NCBI GenBank assembly: GCA_001897295.1
Contig: MKSN01000001.1
Coordinates: 629,575-672,140, forward strand
Direction of reading: 5' to 3'
DNA length: 42,566 nt
From: Candidatus Saccharibacteria bacterium 49-20
GTDB taxonomy: Bacteria; Patescibacteriota; Saccharimonadia; Saccharimonadales; Saccharimonadaceae
Shown here piece by piece: positions 6,102 through 32,117 of the stretch (position 1 is the stretch's first letter; each line of letters starts with the position of its first letter). A program made the translations under genes and the position numbers. Under the pieces are notes generated by a model that was given only the letters and a program-made list of their open reading frames with translations, searched no databases and was not told where the DNA came from.

Positions 6102-7658
6102 ATGTTTAAGAAGATTGTATCCCAACTCTCCTTTAGCCCCGCCTTAGTCGGGCAGCTTGGCTTTTACGCAAAGCGTCTGCGAAAAGAACAGACGACTCGC
6201 CGCCTAGGCCTTATCTTTGTCGCGCTCGCACTCGTTGTGCAAAGCTTAGTAGTATTCCAAGCTCCAGAGCCAGCTAACGCCGCAAACCCAGGCGACATGA
6301 TCCCGGGTGGTCTTGGGCTCGGTTCAGCGCGAAGCTTCAATAACTTCCTTGGCCCTTACGACCGTAACGAACGCCACCTAAAGGACATTTATAACTACTT
6401 CGGCATTACCCGCGAGGAAATCACCGCAACGCAATTCGGTACATTCGTGACTGGCAACAAAATTGGTTGGGGCTTTGAAAACCGTAGCGGCGCAACCGCC
6501 GTTTCTATTACTGACGGAAACTACAAGCCCGTCACTACCCTATACGGACGTCCGCTTAATATTGCCAACGGCTCAAACGCAAAAATCTGGGCGTACATTG
6601 GCTACTCAAAGAAGGTTGGGTGGTTTGCAATCATGCAGTACTGCGGTAACCTGATTACCGACATCTACCCGAGCCCGCCGACTCCTCCACCAGCACCTGC
6701 AAATATTGTTGCGTCAAAAACAGCACTCAACACCACGCAAAATATCGACGCGTCGAAGAAAGCCGCGCAAGCAAATGACAAGATCACTTACACCATTACC
6801 GCCAAGAATACTGGCGGTACTGCGAAAGTTGTCGACTTCTCCGACAACCTACGTGAAGTCCTTGCCTACTCAAAGCTGACAAATAATGGCGGAGGTACGT
6901 TTAACACCTCGACCATGGCACTCAGTTGGCCGTCGGTGAGCATCGCACCGGGACAAACGGTTACCCATGCCTATACGGTGCAAATGAATAGTTCGCTTGT
7001 TTCAACCACCACGACCTGTTCGATGAAGAATGCCTTTACCAACCATGTCGTGACCGTGCCGGTCGGCTGTGTGACCCCACCTGCAAAGATTGAAACAAAT
7101 AAGACTGCCCTTAACATTACGCAGGGCAACGTCGACGCGACTAAAGTAACCGCGAAAGAAAACGATCGTATTACTTTTAACATCACCGTCCAAAACACCG
7201 GTGGTACTACAAAGAAGTTCACTTTTGAAGACAACATCGGCGACACCCTCGAGTACTCAAAGCTCGTTGATAACGGCGGCGGTATCTACAGCGAAGCGAC
7301 TCGCATGCTGAGCTGGCCAGAAATCGACCTCAAGGCTGGTGAAAAGCAAGTGCGTACCTTCACCGTGCAGATCCTTTCAACCATCCCCGCAACCCCACAG
7401 GGTATCAGTGATGCAAGTTCCTACGACTGTAAGATCGAGAATGCATTCTACACCTCATCAGTCATCATTCCTGTCACATGCCCAACACCTAAGGTTATTG
7501 AGCAAGTCGTGCCAGAGCTTCCAAAGACTGGCCCAACCGAAAACATGCTCTTTGCAGGTATTGTGCTCGCCGTCGTCAGCTTCTTCTACTTCCGCGCACG
7601 TCAACTTGGTACAGAAGTACGACTTATCCGTCGTGATGTGAATGGAGGAACAATTTAA
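6102..7658 (+). CDS. LPXTG-anchored surface protein with two DUF11-like repeats
   Basis: This 518-residue protein appears exported and cell-wall anchored. Residues 1-62 have a long basic start, a hydrophobic run (LGLIFVALALVVQSLVVF) and a likely signal-peptidase site after ANA. Residues about 63-200 form an N-terminal module I do not recognise. Two related repeats of about 125 residues follow (near 204-325 and 327-465), each with K-A-LN-TQ, a TYTI/TFNI-x-NTGGT strand, NNGGG/DNGGG and a C-x-x-x-N pair, resembling DUF11/CARDB bacterial Ig folds. The C terminus has LPKTG at 473-477, a hydrophobic stretch and a basic tail, the layout of a sortase signal. No sortase is in the window. Confidence 0.85.
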   Translation: MFKKIVSQLSFSPALVGQLGFYAKRLRKEQTTRRLGLIFVALALVVQSLVVFQAPEPANAANPGDMIPGGLGLGSARSFNNFLGPYDRNERHLKDIYNYFGITREEITATQFGTFVTGNKIGWGFENRSGATAVSITDGNYKPVTTLYGRPLNIANGSNAKIWAYIGYSKKVGWFAIMQYCGNLITDIYPSPPTPPPAPANIVASKTALNTTQNIDASKKAAQANDKITYTITAKNTGGTAKVVDFSDNLREVLAYSKLTNNGGGTFNTSTMALSWPSVSIAPGQTVTHAYTVQMNSSLVSTTTTCSMKNAFTNHVVTVPVGCVTPPAKIETNKTALNITQGNVDATKVTAKENDRITFNITVQNTGGTTKKFTFEDNIGDTLEYSKLVDNGGGIYSEATRMLSWPEIDLKAGEKQVRTFTVQILSTIPATPQGISDASSYDCKIENAFYTSSVIIPVTCPTPKVIEQVVPELPKTGPTENMLFAGIVLAVVSFFYFRARQLGTEVRLIRRDVNGGTI

Positions 7659-8254
7659 TGGGTGCGGAACAATTCCATGGAGACGCTCCTGAGACAAAGA
7701 GCCCTGAAAAAGAGCTCAGTCCAGAGCAGCTCGAAAGCTACCTCAAGGCCGAAGCGTCGGTTGAGCGAGCGCTTGAACAAAGTAACGTAGAAAACGGCGA
7801 GAAAGCCGAATCAGAAGCGCGCCACGAAGCCCTGAAAGAGGCTGTGAGCGTCGAAAAAGGCAGCGCGGAAAAGAAGCGCAAAGAATCTTCTGCATCCCCT
7901 GCCAAGCGTCGTCACGGCGTTGTCAGTAAGAAAGAGCGCAACGCAAGCTACAAACATCACATGAAGCAGCTTCAGAGCGAGCTTAGCCCTGCGCAGCGCA
8001 CATTTAGTAAGTTTATTCACAACCCTGTCGTCGAGAAGACAAGCGAAGCAGTCGGAAGCACCGTTGCGCGACCAAATGCAATCCTCGCAGGTGCAGTCGT
8101 CGCCTTCTTCCTTGTACTTGCCGTATATCTTGTATCAAAGTTCTACGGCTATACCCTCTCAGGCTTCGAAACCATCGGTGCCTTCATCGTTGGATGGATC
8201 TTGGGTATGCTCTATGACTTCTTTAAAGTCATGGTGACCGGCAAGAAAGCCTAA
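7658..8254 (+). CDS. unknown protein: charged N-terminal region plus two membrane segments
   Basis: I do not recognise this 198-residue protein. Residues 1-110 are rich in Glu, Lys, Ala and Ser and probably helical or disordered (KKRKESS, KRRHGVVSKKER). Two hydrophobic segments lie near 142-163 and 168-190. Its ATG overlaps the stop of the LPXTG gene (TAATG) and is preceded by GGAGG, so the two are translationally coupled. It may be a membrane partner of the surface protein; that is inferred only from coupling. Confidence 0.8.
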   Translation: MGAEQFHGDAPETKSPEKELSPEQLESYLKAEASVERALEQSNVENGEKAESEARHEALKEAVSVEKGSAEKKRKESSASPAKRRHGVVSKKERNASYKHHMKQLQSELSPAQRTFSKFIHNPVVEKTSEAVGSTVARPNAILAGAVVAFFLVLAVYLVSKFYGYTLSGFETIGAFIVGWILGMLYDFFKVMVTGKKA

Positions 8255-8273
8255 CCCATTGCGTAGTATATTC

Positions 8274-8300
8274 AAAAGCCCCTCGAGTGAGGGGCTTTTT
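8274..8300. terminator. bidirectional terminator
   Basis: AAAAGCCCCTC, a short loop and GAGGGGCTTTTT. A G+C-rich stem flanked by A and T runs serves the rightward surface-protein operon and the convergent ATPase gene. Confidence 0.9.
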
Positions 8301-8318
8301 AGTGGTGTTGCGTAGGTT

Positions 8319-11264
8319 TTATCGCAGCTTCACCGATACGCCGTCGTCAGACGCATTCGCCGAGGTGTCGCGAATATGAAGCTTCTCTGGCTCTATAGGA
8401 GCAACAGGCTGCACCGGTGCAGGTGCTGGGGCTGGGGCTGACGTCGACAAGGCTGGCTTCGAAGGGCTATTCACTTTCGGAAGAGGCTTTGGTGCCTCAG
8501 GCTTCACTGGTTGTGGCGCAGCGACAACCGGCTGGGGTGCACTTGGGCTAAGTTGGGCGGTTGGACCAAAGGCCGGGTTTGGCGCCGGTGCTGCGGCAGC
8601 TGGTTTTTGCTGGCTCACGATTTGCTGACGCTTTGAAAGCCACTCATCGAGGAACGATGGCTGCTTAGGTGCTGATAGTCCCGCACCCTGCGGCACAACA
8701 GGAGCCTGTCCAGGTGCAACTGGCGTCGCCGATGAGTTTGGACCCACTCCAGCTGGACCACCCGCCCTAAAGGCCGCCATACGCTCTTCTTGCGCCTTCT
8801 TGAGGGCTGCCATCTTCTGCTTCTTTACTTCATCGCCAATGGCCATGCGCTTAAAGAACTCTTGCTCAACTTGTGCACGCGGCTTACCAAACTTAGTTGC
8901 AGAAAGCTTCTTAAGTGCATCTCGCAGTTGTGGGTTCGCCTGCCCAAGTGGTGGCAGTAGCGACATACTGAATGCCGCCGACGGAACATCCTGAATCATC
9001 ACCGATGCGACCGTCTGGAAGTTTGGCATACGGGTCAGGTCTTCGACATCAAAGGTTGGAGTGAATTTCTTAACCAAAATCTCGGCGTCGGTAATACCAA
9101 TACGTCCGCTAATGACCGTACCGATGTTACCAAGAATTGCTTCACGAATTTGATCGGTCAACTGGGTCATAAACTGGTTCGCCAAGATAAGGCTAAGGCG
9201 ATACTTACGAGCTTCCGACAGAATGGTCGCAAAGCTATCGGTCGCGAAGTTCTGGAACTCGTCCACGTAGAGGCTAAAGTCTTGGCGCTCTGATTCTGGC
9301 ATATCCGCACGACCCATGGCTGCGGCGTTGAACTTCATCACGAAGATCATGCCAAGGAGTTGCGAGTTCAACTCACCTACTCGGCCCTTTGAGAGGTTCA
9401 CGAGTAGGATCTTTTTGTTATCCATAATCTCGCGTAGATTAAAGCCACTCTTGGTTTGACCAATAATATTACGCATCATGTCGTTTGCCAGGAAGGCACC
9501 GAACTTACTCGCAAACCATCCGAGCATTTCACCCTTCGAGCTTTCAGTGGTTTGCGCCATTTCCTTATTCCAGAAGTCGAGCACGGTTTGGGTGGTGACG
9601 TGCTTAATCTTCTCGTCGGCAAAGGCCTGATCAATGAATACCTGCTGAACGTCGAGGAACGACGAACCGTTCGGGTCGGCCATCACGGTCAATGCGGCGT
9701 TACGGAACCACGACTCGAAGCGTGGACCAATGATACCGGTGTGTCCTGGGTCGTACAGCTTATAGAGCATGGCGATAGTTTCTTGAATAATAAAGTCGCG
9801 TTGGTCTTGGTTTTCGAACTCAAACAAGTTGAGGCCCACTGGCATCTCCATGTCACCCGGCGCAAAGTAAATCACGTCTTCAACACGTTCTTTTGGCACC
9901 ATGCCAAGAAGTTCTTCGGCCGAGTCACCGTGTGGGTCGATAAACGCGAAGCCACGACCGTCCATCATGTCTTGGTAGGCAAGGTTCTCAAGCAGCTTCG
10001 ACTTACCCGTACCGGTCTGTCCAATAATGTAGCTGTGGCGACGGCGATCTTTCGTACCAAGGCGAATCGGCTTTTTAGTGCCACGGAACTCGTTGTACCC
10101 AAGCAAGAACCCTTCTTCCATGATCTGCGTTGGGCCATCCACCTGCTTTGCAGACTGGCGCTGCACCTGCGAGGTTGGAATCGAGTTTTGGTTTGGCAGG
10201 TGGAAGATGGTCGCGAGCTCAACGGTGTTAAGGACGTTTTGATTCACCTCTTGTGGGAAAAACCTAAAGATATAGGCCGTCACGAATTCTTCGATATTCT
10301 TTGATACCGCAAACTTAAAACCGTTATTCTGAGTTGAATCAAACAGCGAAAACGCCGCAACGACGTTATTCATAAGTGCCTGCGAACGAGCTGACGTGTT
10401 TGATGACGCAACCACACGAATAAGGGTTTCGTACGCCGGGTATCTCGTCTTGTCATCAATTGCTTCAACGGTAGCTTGCTCGATAGAACTGAGCTGCTTA
10501 TCTTCAACCTTCACTTCGTGGGACTCAGGCGGCTTCCAGAGTGCTTCAAGAATTCCGGTCATGATGGTAGCGGTGCCACCCTTCTTGCCCTTATTCTTAC
10601 GAATATTCTCGGCGACTGACTGCCCTGCCTTAGCCCAACCCTCTTGTGCGGGGCGAATAAGGATTTGAATACCCACGCCGTCTTCACGCGTTGCGCCAGA
10701 AAGTGCATTAAGGAGTGCGCGTGAGGCATCGCGCTTTGACTCTTGGTAGGTTGCGATTGGATACGCAAAGTCTTTCTTTAATGTAAACTCACCACCTATT
10801 GTGCCGCTCATACGACCCGCGGGATTAAAGATGTTACGCTCACTCACCTCTTCAAGGCGTGCCGATGGATACGCCGCGGCGACAGCTTGTTGAATGACAT
10901 CAATAAGCGAAACAGGAACGACTGCATAATAATGTACCAGGCCTTCGTGGGCGACAATCTCGAATGAAATGTGGCGCTGTCCATAAATGCGGCTTTTGAA
11001 GCCCTTGGTCGCGGTGCTGGCAATAATGTTATACATCACCTGTGCTTGGCTCAGCACCTCTTCGGTCAGGTCGCGTTCGTCACGGCCATTGCCTTCGATG
11101 TCAGAACTAATAGGCGGAATATGAATATAAAGCGGGACCATTTTAAGGCCACGTTCATAGTTCTTCGCTTCGCGAACCACCTTACGGTACTGCATGAATA
11201 CAAAGCCACCCACGACTGCGATTGCAATCAGGACAATGGCTACCGTAATGATGACTCCCAACAC
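8319..11264 (-). CDS. VirD4/TraD-like membrane ATPase (type IV coupling-protein family)
   Basis: This 981-residue protein has one N-terminal membrane segment (about 3-25). A roughly 370-residue region of unknown fold follows, then a RecA-like ATPase core. Walker A is GQTGTGKS at 415-422, followed by FAFIDPHGDSAEE; Walker B is YVDEFQNF at 666-673; a sensor-like ANQFMTQL lies near 695. This is the pattern of type IV secretion coupling proteins and related FtsK/HerA DNA pumps. The tail from about 800 is rich in Pro and Ala and probably unstructured. No other conjugation gene is nearby, so DNA or protein transport in the cell envelope is inferred. AAGGGAG-like bases (from the reverse of CTCCCTC) lie before the ATG. 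Confidence 0.85.
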   Translation of the reverse strand: MLGVIITVAIVLIAIAVVGGFVFMQYRKVVREAKNYERGLKMVPLYIHIPPISSDIEGNGRDERDLTEEVLSQAQVMYNIIASTATKGFKSRIYGQRHISFEIVAHEGLVHYYAVVPVSLIDVIQQAVAAAYPSARLEEVSERNIFNPAGRMSGTIGGEFTLKKDFAYPIATYQESKRDASRALLNALSGATREDGVGIQILIRPAQEGWAKAGQSVAENIRKNKGKKGGTATIMTGILEALWKPPESHEVKVEDKQLSSIEQATVEAIDDKTRYPAYETLIRVVASSNTSARSQALMNNVVAAFSLFDSTQNNGFKFAVSKNIEEFVTAYIFRFFPQEVNQNVLNTVELATIFHLPNQNSIPTSQVQRQSAKQVDGPTQIMEEGFLLGYNEFRGTKKPIRLGTKDRRRHSYIIGQTGTGKSKLLENLAYQDMMDGRGFAFIDPHGDSAEELLGMVPKERVEDVIYFAPGDMEMPVGLNLFEFENQDQRDFIIQETIAMLYKLYDPGHTGIIGPRFESWFRNAALTVMADPNGSSFLDVQQVFIDQAFADEKIKHVTTQTVLDFWNKEMAQTTESSKGEMLGWFASKFGAFLANDMMRNIIGQTKSGFNLREIMDNKKILLVNLSKGRVGELNSQLLGMIFVMKFNAAAMGRADMPESERQDFSLYVDEFQNFATDSFATILSEARKYRLSLILANQFMTQLTDQIREAILGNIGTVISGRIGITDAEILVKKFTPTFDVEDLTRMPNFQTVASVMIQDVPSAAFSMSLLPPLGQANPQLRDALKKLSATKFGKPRAQVEQEFFKRMAIGDEVKKQKMAALKKAQEERMAAFRAGGPAGVGPNSSATPVAPGQAPVVPQGAGLSAPKQPSFLDEWLSKRQQIVSQQKPAAAAPAPNPAFGPTAQLSPSAPQPVVAAPQPVKPEAPKPLPKVNSPSKPALSTSAPAPAPAPVQPVAPIEPEKLHIRDTSANASDDGVSVKLR

Positions 11265-29193: not shown

Positions 29194-31011
29194 TTAGAGA
29201 CCTTTCAGGTATTCAACAAGTGAATCGAAGGCAACCTTCTCTTCACCCTGCTGGGTACGCACGCTGACTTCGCGCGCTTCAAGGTCCTTGCCACCGATAA
29301 TCAACTGTACTGGAATTTTCGCGGTCGTTGCTTCACGAATCTTCTTACCAAGACTTTCGTTACGGTCATCCACAGTGAAGCGAAGCTCGTTATAGCGAAC
29401 CGGCGCCATGAGCACAGTCTCGCTAAGGACCGCCTTGATTTCATCAACGTAGCCAAGGACGGTGTCGTTGATCGTAAGGATACGAATCTGCTCTGGAGCC
29501 GCCCAGAATGGGAACCAGCCCGCAGTGTGCTCGATAAACACGCTCAGGAAGCGCTCAATCGATCCAAGGAGCGCACAGTGAATCATGACTGGCTGCGCAT
29601 TGTTACCTTCTGAATCGGTGTAGCTGAGGCCAAAGCGCTGCGGCTGCACGAAGTCGAGTTGCACAGTCGCCACTTGGTGCTCGCGACCAATCGCGTCGGT
29701 TGCCATGAAGTCAATCTTCGGACCGTAAAAGGCTGCTTCGCCTTCTTGTTCAAAGTATTCAAGCTCGTTGGCAATGACAGCCTGCTTGAGCTGCGCCTGG
29801 GCAGATTCCCAGAGCGCCAATTCACCTAAGTAGCCCTCGCCTTCGTCGCGGTACGAAAGGCGCACGCGAAGCTTCATGCCGATAGAACCGTACAGTTCGC
29901 GAGCGGCGGCAAGCAAATTATTAATTTCCTGTTCAATTTGATCAGGACGTGCGAAGACATGGCTGTCGTCTTGAGTAAGTGAACGCACGCGGTTAAGCCC
30001 ACCGAGCTCCCCCGTCTTCTCGTCGCGATAATCAGTCGTAGTCTCGAGGAAACGCACTGGCATATCCTTATAGCTACGTGGTGATGAGGCGTAAATTTGG
30101 GTGTGGTGCGGACAGTTCATTGGCTTCAAGGCAAACTCATCGCTTGTCTCTTGGCTGGTGACGAGGAACAACTCATCGCCAAACTTTGCCCAGTGTCCCG
30201 AAGCTTCATACAGATCCTTCTTAGTGATGTGTGGAGTCCAAACCTTTTGGAACCCAGCACGCTGACGAAGTTGGTTTGAGTACTGCGCCACGATGTCACG
30301 AAGCACGGTACCTCGAGGGGTAAACAAGGGAAGTCCCGCACCTACTAGTGGCGACACGGTGTAGAGATCGAGCTCCTTACCGAGTTTGCGGTGGTCGCGA
30401 AGCTTTGCCTGCTCGAGGCGCTCAAGGTACTGGTCAAGTTCTTCTTGGGTTTCAAATGCCACACCGTAAAGGCGCTGCATCTGTGCGTTCTTTTCGTTAC
30501 CACGCCAGTACGCGCCCGCAACGCGAAGCAGCTTAAAGGCACCTACCTCTTTGGTGTTGGCGACGTGAGGACCGCGACAAAGGTCCACAAACTCACCATT
30601 CTTGTAAAATGATACCTTCTCTACTGCCGCATCACCTTCGGCTGCGAGGCCAAGCTCGTCAGCGTCGAGGTCTTTTGCAATAGTAGTGCCTGAGCGCTTC
30701 AGGTCGTTCAGAAGCTCTTCCTTGTACGGCTGGCCGTTCACCTTCGCCCATTCAATCGCCTCATCAACTGGCATTTCAAAGCGGTCGAAATCTTGGCTTT
30801 GATTAATAATGGCGCGCATTTCTTTTTCAATCTTCTTGAAATCAGATTCAGAAATCTTCTGCTCACCAAGGTCGATGTCGTAGTAGAATCCATTCTCTAC
30901 TACTGGCCCCACACCAAACTTAGCCGCTGGCCACAGTTTTTTTACTGCACCCGCAGTAATGTGGGCGAGGCTGTGCCTCATTGCGTGAAGGTGTTCGTTG
31001 TTGTCGCTCAT
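29194..31011 (-). CDS. thrS: threonyl-tRNA synthetase without TGS domain
   Basis: ThrRS loads tRNA-Thr. The 605-residue protein begins directly with the editing domain: zinc-like HSLAH at 13-17 and CRGPH at 145-149, which would hydrolyse Ser-tRNA-Thr. The class II core follows, with motif 2 RYDE-like TDYRDEKTGELGGLNRVRSLTQDDSHVF and zinc ligands in NCPHH, and then motif 3 GSIERFLSVFIEH and the anticodon domain. The N-terminal TGS domain of about 60 residues in E. coli ThrRS is missing. AAGGAA precedes the ATG. Upstream is a T-box leader. Confidence 0.96.
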   Translation of the reverse strand: MSDNNEHLHAMRHSLAHITAGAVKKLWPAAKFGVGPVVENGFYYDIDLGEQKISESDFKKIEKEMRAIINQSQDFDRFEMPVDEAIEWAKVNGQPYKEELLNDLKRSGTTIAKDLDADELGLAAEGDAAVEKVSFYKNGEFVDLCRGPHVANTKEVGAFKLLRVAGAYWRGNEKNAQMQRLYGVAFETQEELDQYLERLEQAKLRDHRKLGKELDLYTVSPLVGAGLPLFTPRGTVLRDIVAQYSNQLRQRAGFQKVWTPHITKKDLYEASGHWAKFGDELFLVTSQETSDEFALKPMNCPHHTQIYASSPRSYKDMPVRFLETTTDYRDEKTGELGGLNRVRSLTQDDSHVFARPDQIEQEINNLLAAARELYGSIGMKLRVRLSYRDEGEGYLGELALWESAQAQLKQAVIANELEYFEQEGEAAFYGPKIDFMATDAIGREHQVATVQLDFVQPQRFGLSYTDSEGNNAQPVMIHCALLGSIERFLSVFIEHTAGWFPFWAAPEQIRILTINDTVLGYVDEIKAVLSETVLMAPVRYNELRFTVDDRNESLGKKIREATTAKIPVQLIIGGKDLEAREVSVRTQQGEEKVAFDSLVEYLKGL

Positions 31012-31048: not shown

Positions 31049-31212
31049 ATTAAAAGAAACATGCAATGTCAGGTTTAAATGATTAAATCCATTCATTGCA
31101 TGTCTCGGGTCTAGTTGCCTAGACGGTTCCACCGGACGTTTTACTTGTGAATCCCGTTATCGCACAGGAAGCCTCCACGAAGCTCGGCGGATGGTTAGGC
31201 CGCGTCATTGCT
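31049..31212 (-). promoter_or_regulatory. T-box leader controlling thrS
   Basis: The roughly 200-base leader of thrS has a T-box antiterminator plan. Helix A1 is GTC-CGG / CCG-A-GAC. The seven-base bulge is TGGAACC (31131-31125), the conserved UGGNACC. Helix A2 is GTCTAG/CTAGAC with a GCAA loop. The competing terminator uses GAGACATGCAATG with CATTGCATGTTTC (31106-31094 and 31068-31056), 13 bp with one G-U pair, then TTTTAATTT. Its 5' strand shares GAGAC with A1, so the two folds exclude each other. TGGA can pair with the UCCA end of tRNA-Thr at 34829-34904. The specifier loop could not be placed with certainty: ACC and ACG candidates exist near 31188 and 31156. Confidence 0.8.
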
Positions 31213-31235: not shown

Positions 31236-32117
31236 TTACTGCTTCCAAACCTTTAGGGCCGTCTGGTACCAGGGCGCTGCTGCAGTTGTACCCGAGGTGC
31301 CATCGTTTTGCGTCCACACGGTTGCGCGTATAATACCCGCAGGCACTGTCAAACAGTTGCTCATTTTCTGCCAACCACTCACATTTGGGTAGACCCTTCC
31401 CGCAGCAGTCCAACTACTGGCCGTGCCGTTATAATACTGAAACCCAAGAGCATGGCTCACGGTTGAACTCGTTGTCGCCGCCCAGCCATCAAAACAATAT
31501 ACTTCTCCGGGGCTCACAGTCAACTGTGCACCAATCAAGTTGTCCCTTGAGGTCTGCCTCCCCACATACGCACCCGGCGCGTCCGTGGGCACTTCTGCAT
31601 CAGAGGCATTAAGCCGCACAAGACCGCTTCCTGCGCTGTTGAGTGTCGCATTAGACCCTATCGTGCCGTCGCAGTAAAACCCATTGATCGGCGTCAGCGC
31701 ATTCACGGGGCACCAGTTTGGACCGCCGCTATGGCCACTACAAGGACCTTCGACCATTGCCTCTGATCCATTTTTACTCTTAGGATACTCTGACCCGCCA
31801 TACACCGCAGTCACGCAGTAGCTTTTTGTATCGGCCGAGCGCGTGTACTGCAATGCTACCTTATTGTCCGAACCACTAAAGCCCGCTGCCGAAAGCGAAT
31901 CAGGATACACCCCTGCATTTAGCACTGCCGAAGACTCAATTTTCGTTGCCACTTGCTTCAGAGTCGTATCGACTGCGGCTGATTTTGTCCTATTTTGTAT
32001 TCCTGTGTACGCAACAATAGTAATTGCCGCAAGAATCGCAATCACCACAACCACAATAAGCAACTCGACGATTGTAAAACCTGTTTGTTTTGCCACCCTT
32101 ATTTTCATTACCACCAT
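31236..32117 (-). CDS. type IV pilin-like protein with C-terminal beta domain
   Basis: A 293-residue protein with the prepilin signal [22 protein letters not shown] (residues 11-32; cleavage before Phe14). A short pilin domain runs to about 120. A Cys-containing linker (GPCSGHSGGPNWC, FYCDGTIG) leads to a C-terminal domain (about 155-293) with a carbohydrate-binding-module-like look (LVRLNASDAEVPTDAPGAYVGRQ, VYPNVSGWQKMSNCL). That domain call is a guess. ATG 32117 or 32108 may be used; the latter has GGTGG close upstream. Probably a minor or tip pilin. Confidence 0.85.
   Translation of the reverse strand: MVVMKIRVAKQTGFTIVELLIVVVVIAILAAITIVAYTGIQNRTKSAAVDTTLKQVATKIESSAVLNAGVYPDSLSAAGFSGSDNKVALQYTRSADTKSYCVTAVYGGSEYPKSKNGSEAMVEGPCSGHSGGPNWCPVNALTPINGFYCDGTIGSNATLNSAGSGLVRLNASDAEVPTDAPGAYVGRQTSRDNLIGAQLTVSPGEVYCFDGWAATTSSTVSHALGFQYYNGTASSWTAAGRVYPNVSGWQKMSNCLTVPAGIIRATVWTQNDGTSGTTAAAPWYQTALKVWKQ

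Follow-up and report, generated by a model that had tools for sequence, protein, structure and literature searches.

T-boxes are grouped into four classes, in which either or both of two elements strengthen tRNA binding: a double T-loop motif in the distal part of Stem I, which binds the tRNA elbow, and an S-turn in Stem II (PMC10482949, in part). Class III T-boxes, such as that of Nocardia farcinica ileS, have a short Stem I without the elbow motif, an apical specifier loop of 5-6 nt, a kink-turn, a Stem IIA/B pseudoknot and a UGGN bulge; they respond to Ile, require an S-turn Stem II and are mostly translational, usually through SD control, and a Kd of 24 nM is quoted for this class (PMC10482949, in part). 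Class II T-boxes, such as that of B. subtilis glyQS, act by transcription termination and have no S-turn Stem II, and they combine a long Stem I bearing the elbow motif with an internal-loop specifier, glycine specificity and a single-stranded linker (PMC10482949, in part). Class I contains a long Stem I with a distal double T-loop, an internal-loop specifier and an S-turn Stem II; in class IV, Stem I is of intermediate length and carries the specifier in a side bulge flanked by two helices. For T-boxes that act on transcription, a long Stem I bearing the elbow-binding motif is generally needed (PMC7583486, section 16, in part), and a 2008 survey placed T-boxes in only a few phyla (PMC2494555, in part).

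The window analyzed here is a 42,566-nt stretch of the genome of Candidatus Saccharibacteria bacterium 49-20, which is a single contig of 904,897 bases. It contains a thrS gene preceded by a 200-nt leader, in which a sequence-only reading had seen a T-box attenuator in a CPR-type genome. The genome type was borne out: the window ThrS shared 94% identity with its counterpart in 'Candidatus Saccharibacteria bacterium 47-87', and the best 80 named ThrS relatives were mostly labelled Saccharibacteria, Saccharimonadia or Patescibacteria. On the minus strand, the order of elements was promoter, Stem I, pseudoknot, linker, antiterminator, terminator, AGGAAA and the ATG of thrS, with the following features in window coordinates:

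31248-31243 and 31225-31220, minus strand: -35 and -10 boxes of the promoter TTGGAA-17-TATAAT (10/12 consensus match, TG before the -10)
31213-31180, minus strand: ultrashort Stem I (pairing and covariation in thrS leaders)
31195-31193, minus strand: specifier ACC, a Thr codon, in the apical loop 31199-31191 (conserved AC(C/G/U) in leaders)
31179-31152, minus strand: H-type pseudoknot in the place of Stem IIA/B (covariation, pairing table)
31137-31102, minus strand: antiterminator (conserved bulge, covariation)
31106-31044, minus strand: intrinsic terminator, stem 31106-31094/31068-31056, U-rich tract from 31055 (fold energies, conservation)
29194-31011, minus strand: thrS, threonyl-tRNA synthetase of 605 aa (tRNA-synt_2b, tRNA_SAD and HGTP_anticodon domain matches)
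34904-34829, minus strand: tRNA-Thr(CGT) in the window, whose 3' end TCCA is complementary to UGGA

The sequence of Stem I reads AAGC-AAT-GA-C-GCGG-CCTAACCAT-CCGC-C-GA-GCTT. It consists of a base helix (AAGC/GCTT), an AAT-GA ... GA element, an inner helix (GCGG/CCGC) and a 9-nt apical loop. By its resemblance to the kink-turn consensus, we take the AAT-GA ... GA element to be kink-turn-like, and the same GAUGA...GAGC occurs in the RF00230 consensus. The impression of the sequence-only reading that Stem I is short was correct but incomplete, as this stem is also whole at 34 nt; since the -10 box ends just upstream (6 nt in the window), there is no longer stem of which it could be a remnant. The promoter search found one promoter in the window leader against a mean of 0.3 in shuffles. 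A -10 hexamer lay at most 22 nt 5' of Stem I in 58 of 64 thrS leaders, the window included, and in 47 of those 58 it ended 6-7 nt before Stem I, compared with 14% in shuffles.

The specifier was sought in the leaders by fold only, using pairing and the two GA steps and leaving the loop unconstrained; four leaders whose upstream sequence was too short (L053, L072, L099, L108) were omitted. In all 63 thrS leaders, loop positions 5-7 were ACC (52), ACG (6) or ACU (5), and the next base was a purine in every case. Among the best folds of shuffled controls, AC occupied positions 5-6 in 82 of 1260 (6.5%). As judged from these loops, the triplet is invariant at its first two positions and wobbles at the third, which suits a Thr codon, and a tRNA-Thr(GGT), the reader of ACC, is present in the source genome. 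The sequence-only reading had held that the lack of any possible specifier stem would speak against a T-box; such a stem exists, with ACC in the loop that caps Stem I. Both the specifier and the pseudoknot are additional to the elements that it had named.

The distance from Stem I to helix A1 was 42 nt, occupied by the pseudoknot and a linker. In the pseudoknot, CGT (31179-31177) pairs with GCG (31163-31161) and TCCTGT (31169-31164) with ACGGGA (31157-31152). In the covariation alignment described below, the CGU/RCG helix was paired in 95.1% of cells and the second helix in 83.9%. Counted per leader, the triplets were CGU/ACG in 24, CGU/GCG in 14, CGC/GCG in 8, CGC/ACG in one and another combination in one (p 0.008, with at least one row, L071, misread); of the two counts, we rely on that from the alignment. 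We recognized no Stem II S-turn in the window leader, as judged by sequence and pairing. Separately, three genomes of family f64 (L222, L231, L247) had only a hairpin of ~24 nt between Stem I and the bulge of the thrS leader; with the pseudoknot gone and ~85-100 nt left, these are perhaps the smallest working T-boxes.

The antiterminator described by the sequence-only reading, together with a 13-bp terminator that has GAGAC in common with helix A1, was located in full on the minus strand. In helix A1, GTCCGG (31137-31132) pairs with CCGaGAC (31108-31102); the bulge TGGAACC occupies 31131-31125; and in helix A2, GTCTAG (31124-31119) pairs with CTAGAC (31114-31109) across a GCAA loop. Conservation of the bulge in relatives, the absence of which had been named as a counter-argument, was evident from 77 of the 80 named thrS loci (L042, L097 and L107 were left out because thrS was cut or too close to the contig end): TGGA was present in 66 of the 77, plus the window, with C or A as the final bulge base. 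The T-box motif was absent at the other 11 of these 77 loci. In five leaders (L068, L093, L098, L102, L112), UGGAACA replaced UGGAACC and A2 began GCC...GGC. At two loci of family f25 (L240, L246), ACGGAAU(C) took the place of UGGAACC 5' of thrS, so that pairing with the final base of CCA would be altered.

The bulge had been matched to the UCCA end of tRNA-Thr, and this match extended beyond the window, as the window tRNA-Thr and the two others found in the source genome all carry U73 and end in TCCA. Among the tRNAs of this genome whose ends were examined, U73 was limited to Thr, Lys and Cys; the ends were ACCA for Ile and Val and GCCA for Asp and Trp. Although U73 is usual in bacterial tRNA-Gly, both tRNA-Gly examined in the source genome (L180 and L186) end in ACCA (A73), and no Gly T-box was found in this genome.

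The terminator strands were GAGACATGCAATG and CATTGCATGTTTC, forming 13 pairs including one G-U and followed by TTTTAATTT; GAGAC at 31106-31102 belongs to both the 5' strand and helix A1. By the rule that we used, a terminator was found in 65 of 67 thrS leaders (66 named plus the window), with none in L089 and L105, and its 5' strand overlapped A1 in 62 of the 67; L083, L109 and L111 had a terminator with no A1 overlap. The window leader was more stable than 200 of 200 shuffles (z -4.55). Its terminator fold (-55.6 kcal/mol) was more stable than the forced antiterminator (-46.3 kcal/mol), and therefore OFF would be the default state, as in known T-boxes.

Covariation was examined in an alignment of 34 thrS leaders of at most 92 nt from Stem I to bulge, with the CCAA type left out and other types uncounted. 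The 27-pair structure was paired in 92.8% of 893 cells, and both sides changed in 20 of the 27 pairs. When the partner was slid by 1-3 columns, pairing dropped to 27.5-41.3%, a control that mildly favors the structure, as this was drawn partly from the aligned sequences themselves. None of 500 covariation shuffles reached any of the five measures. The two helices of Stem I were paired in 99.3% of cells, and all eight of their pairs changed on both sides. As evident from these comparisons, the helices, codon, bulge, terminator overlap and tRNA-end match can be regarded as established by sequence comparison.

From this alignment, we built a covariance model (R1). In the source genome, R1 gave one match, the window leader, which was in the training set. 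Across 379 genomes of the phylum, it found 62 sites in 61 genomes. In the same class as the source genome there were 18 sites, 17 of them adjoining thrS (the 18th, in G388, fell outside that check). Outside the class, R1 found 44 sites, all of them absent from the training set, and 43 of these preceded aminoacyl-tRNA synthetase genes: 33 thrS, five glyS, two aspS (both annotated as aspartate--tRNA(Asn) ligase), two valS and one trpS. The remaining site, L263, had no synthetase gene downstream. These thrS calls were made by tblastn and the valS call at L261 by sequence reading rather than by NCBIfam, and at four of the 33 thrS sites (L221, L232, L242, L259) the match begins 0.5-1.3 kb downstream and is not adjacent. 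R1 recovers leaders that Rfam missed, and at least seven of its sites were in common with RF00230 matches.

The loop codon changed with the gene. Outside the class, a clean AC(C/U/G) codon was present at 29 of the 33 thrS sites, the exceptions in the R1 model alignment being L250, L251, L256 and L259; the codon was GGC or GGA in five of five glyS leaders, GAC in both aspS leaders and GUC in one of two valS leaders (at L261 and L262, R1 matched the 3' part only). The register of the codon was constant across genes to ~1 nucleotide. Thr and Gly leaders had a UGGA bulge, Ile and Val leaders had UGGU, and the Trp leader had UGGC; before aspS the bulge was UGGC in one leader and UGGU in the other (L249). 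A sequence-pattern search for tRNA-Gly in five genomes gave no tRNA; in one of the five, the glyS-leader genome G255, RF00005 yielded a tRNA-Gly(CCC), which carries U73, matching the UGGA of that genome.

A second T-box of the source genome, before ileS, offered a comparison within the same organism. Its features, in coordinates of the locus L002, are as follows:

~10250-10060, minus strand: ileS T-box (RF00230, 36.4 bits)
9605-10054, minus strand: small NUDIX-like gene (by sequence motif), 3' of the T-box
6657-9608, minus strand: ileS, after the NUDIX-like gene

Like the window leader, this T-box has an ultrashort Stem I (GTGG[CTATCAC]CCAC) with its codon, AUC, in an apical loop, here of 7 nt, and a UGGU bulge facing the ACCA end of tRNA-Ile. 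An IleS match was present in 59 genomes, of which 30 were used as loci; upstream of 22 of these 30 lay a stem of at least four pairs with the loop (C/T)TATCNN. The ileS leaders, that of the source genome included, end in U-rich terminators by eye. Unlike the window leader, they have retained a longer stretch in the middle, which in most relatives contains strands resembling AGUAGA/GAAGAA (S-turn-like on visual inspection), and the own-genome ileS T-box scores with RF00230. Genes upstream of the two leaders also looked alike at the N-terminus: the window gene at 31236-32117 (minus strand) has an N-terminal methylation motif and is pilin-like, and the gene preceding the ileS T-box (L002 10292-11275) has a similar N-terminus by eye.

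The general features of a T-box were present in the window leader, namely a Thr codon in Stem I, a 7-nt UGGN bulge and an alternative terminator. B. subtilis thrS carries a T-box, and the window leader shares with it and with the RF00230 T-box the GAUGA...GAGC kink-turn-like base, the bulge, A1/A2, the overlapping terminator and the target gene, whereas its Stem I is cut off at the specifier loop. The likeness to class III covers the short Stem I without elbow motif, the apical specifier, the kink-turn, the pseudoknot and the UGGN bulge; the differences are the Thr codon, a 9-nt loop (7 nt in ileS leaders), the terminator and the lack of any S-turn Stem II that we could find. With class II, the leader has termination and the missing S-turn Stem II in common, but its Stem I has 34 nt, carries a Thr codon and is followed by a pseudoknot. 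Class I differs by its long Stem I, in contrast to a 34-nt stem capped by the specifier, and class IV by its side-bulge specifier, in contrast to an apical one. The window leader thus appears to fit none of the four classes, with the absence of the S-turn judged by sequence and pairing.

The RF00230 search, proposed by the sequence-only reading as a check, went against it: no match to the leader was obtained even at E<=5, so that the outcome it had named as contrary, no T-box model hit, did occur as worded. The leader lies below the RF00230 cut-off of 93 bits, which is a detection threshold and not a defining property, and it was missed because the model expects a long Stem I. Ten related thrS loci likewise gave no match at E<=1; the model did match the own-genome ileS leader and some divergent thrS leaders. 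An Enterococcus sRNA model was rejected as the identity of the leader (17.6 bits, E 1.1). In the phylum, RF00230 matched in 95 of 286 genomes at E<=0.01, with nine above the cut-off, and we therefore consider T-boxes, both ordinary and short, to be widespread in it. Genes 3' of RF00230 sites included tyrS, proS, ileS, hisS, trpE, trpB, argG and sulfate adenylyltransferase (20 scanned from 30 loci, several without a family). A PMC search, with subscription journals and preprints outside its scope, returned no paper on T-boxes in CPR, Saccharibacteria, Patescibacteria or Parcubacteria, and the consulted parts of TBDB (PMC7778990), PMC12452182, PMC2494555 and PMC1262725 do not mention T-boxes in CPR; CPR sequences may already be included in the tables of Rfam or TBDB.

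We read the window leader as a tRNA-Thr-sensing T-box attenuator of thrS, with a probability of about 0.92 on the sequence evidence. The attenuator proposed at the outset is upheld by the conserved bulge, the specifier changing with the gene, the base-pair covariation and the conserved overlapping terminator. We infer that the leader would bind tRNA, sense its charging and permit read-through. Transcription would start at or just before Stem I, and the apical ACC would pair with tRNA-Thr through its anticodon GGU. The free UCCA end of an uncharged tRNA would pair with the UGGA of the bulge and stabilize A1/A2; GAGAC would then be kept from the 13-bp terminator, and polymerase would continue into thrS. 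With charged tRNA-Thr, the terminator, the more stable fold, would form and thrS would be off.

Three other explanations were weighed against this attenuator. The E. coli thrS operator is bound by ThrRS at a tRNA-like leader hairpin, and a hairpin with a conserved loop does precede thrS here; enzyme feedback of this type is nevertheless very improbable, as the E. coli-type loop is anticodon-like, whereas the window loop bears the codon ACN, none of the anticodons GGU/CGU/UGU. Where this architecture precedes ileS, glyS, aspS and valS, it carries the codons of those genes, and feedback would leave both the UGGN bulge and the overlapping terminator unexplained. A translational T-box like the actinobacterial ileS T-boxes, with an incidental U-tract, is somewhat less far-fetched but still unlikely. 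An ultrashort Stem I with an apical specifier has been described mostly in translational T-boxes (PMC7583486 and PMC10482949, both in part), but the U-rich terminator and its overlap with A1 recur in nearly all leaders, and the SD-like AGGAAA (31021-31016, minus strand) lies 35 nt beyond the terminator stem, outside both folds.

Strong hairpins alone are common and RF00230 is silent on the leader, which would suit an ordinary intergenic terminator or chance helices. This explanation has almost nothing left to it, being already contradicted by the covariation and the structure-only specifier search; the codon following the gene, the conserved bulge and the promoter 6-7 nt before Stem I also stand against it. 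The attenuator reading is thus preferred, and its unusual point is architectural, a terminator combined with an ultrashort Stem I, going beyond the taxonomic novelty that the sequence-only reading had stressed.

It is fairly probable that these leaders form a fifth class of T-box architecture and that this class is widespread in CPR. In it, Stem I would be pared down to a kink-turn plus a hairpin whose apical loop of 7-9 nt holds the codon, the elbow motif and the S-turn would both be missing in the thrS form, termination control would be kept, and in one family (L222, L231, L247) the pseudoknot would be gone as well. The window leader would break the rule that transcriptional T-boxes generally need a long, elbow-gripping Stem I (PMC7583486, in part). 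This suggests that the codon and the CCA end may suffice where transcription is the decision step, and it makes the thrS leader a minimal T-box for probing how little RNA reads a tRNA. The short CPR T-boxes also bear on T-box origins. CPR bacteria are host-dependent and draw on an external amino acid supply, and the leaders point to a layer of regulation in such bacteria.

Some thrS loci departed from this arrangement. Six thrS genes without a T-box (L047, L050, L059, L060, L061, L066) had a -10-like hexamer ~6-9 nt before the ATG, which should leave their mRNA almost without a leader; apparently, the switch was lost together with the entire leader. Additionally, in Saccharibacteria TM7i, a region 5' of thrS (L035 1524-1650) matched the Rfam LOOT RNA above its cut-off (52.2 bits).
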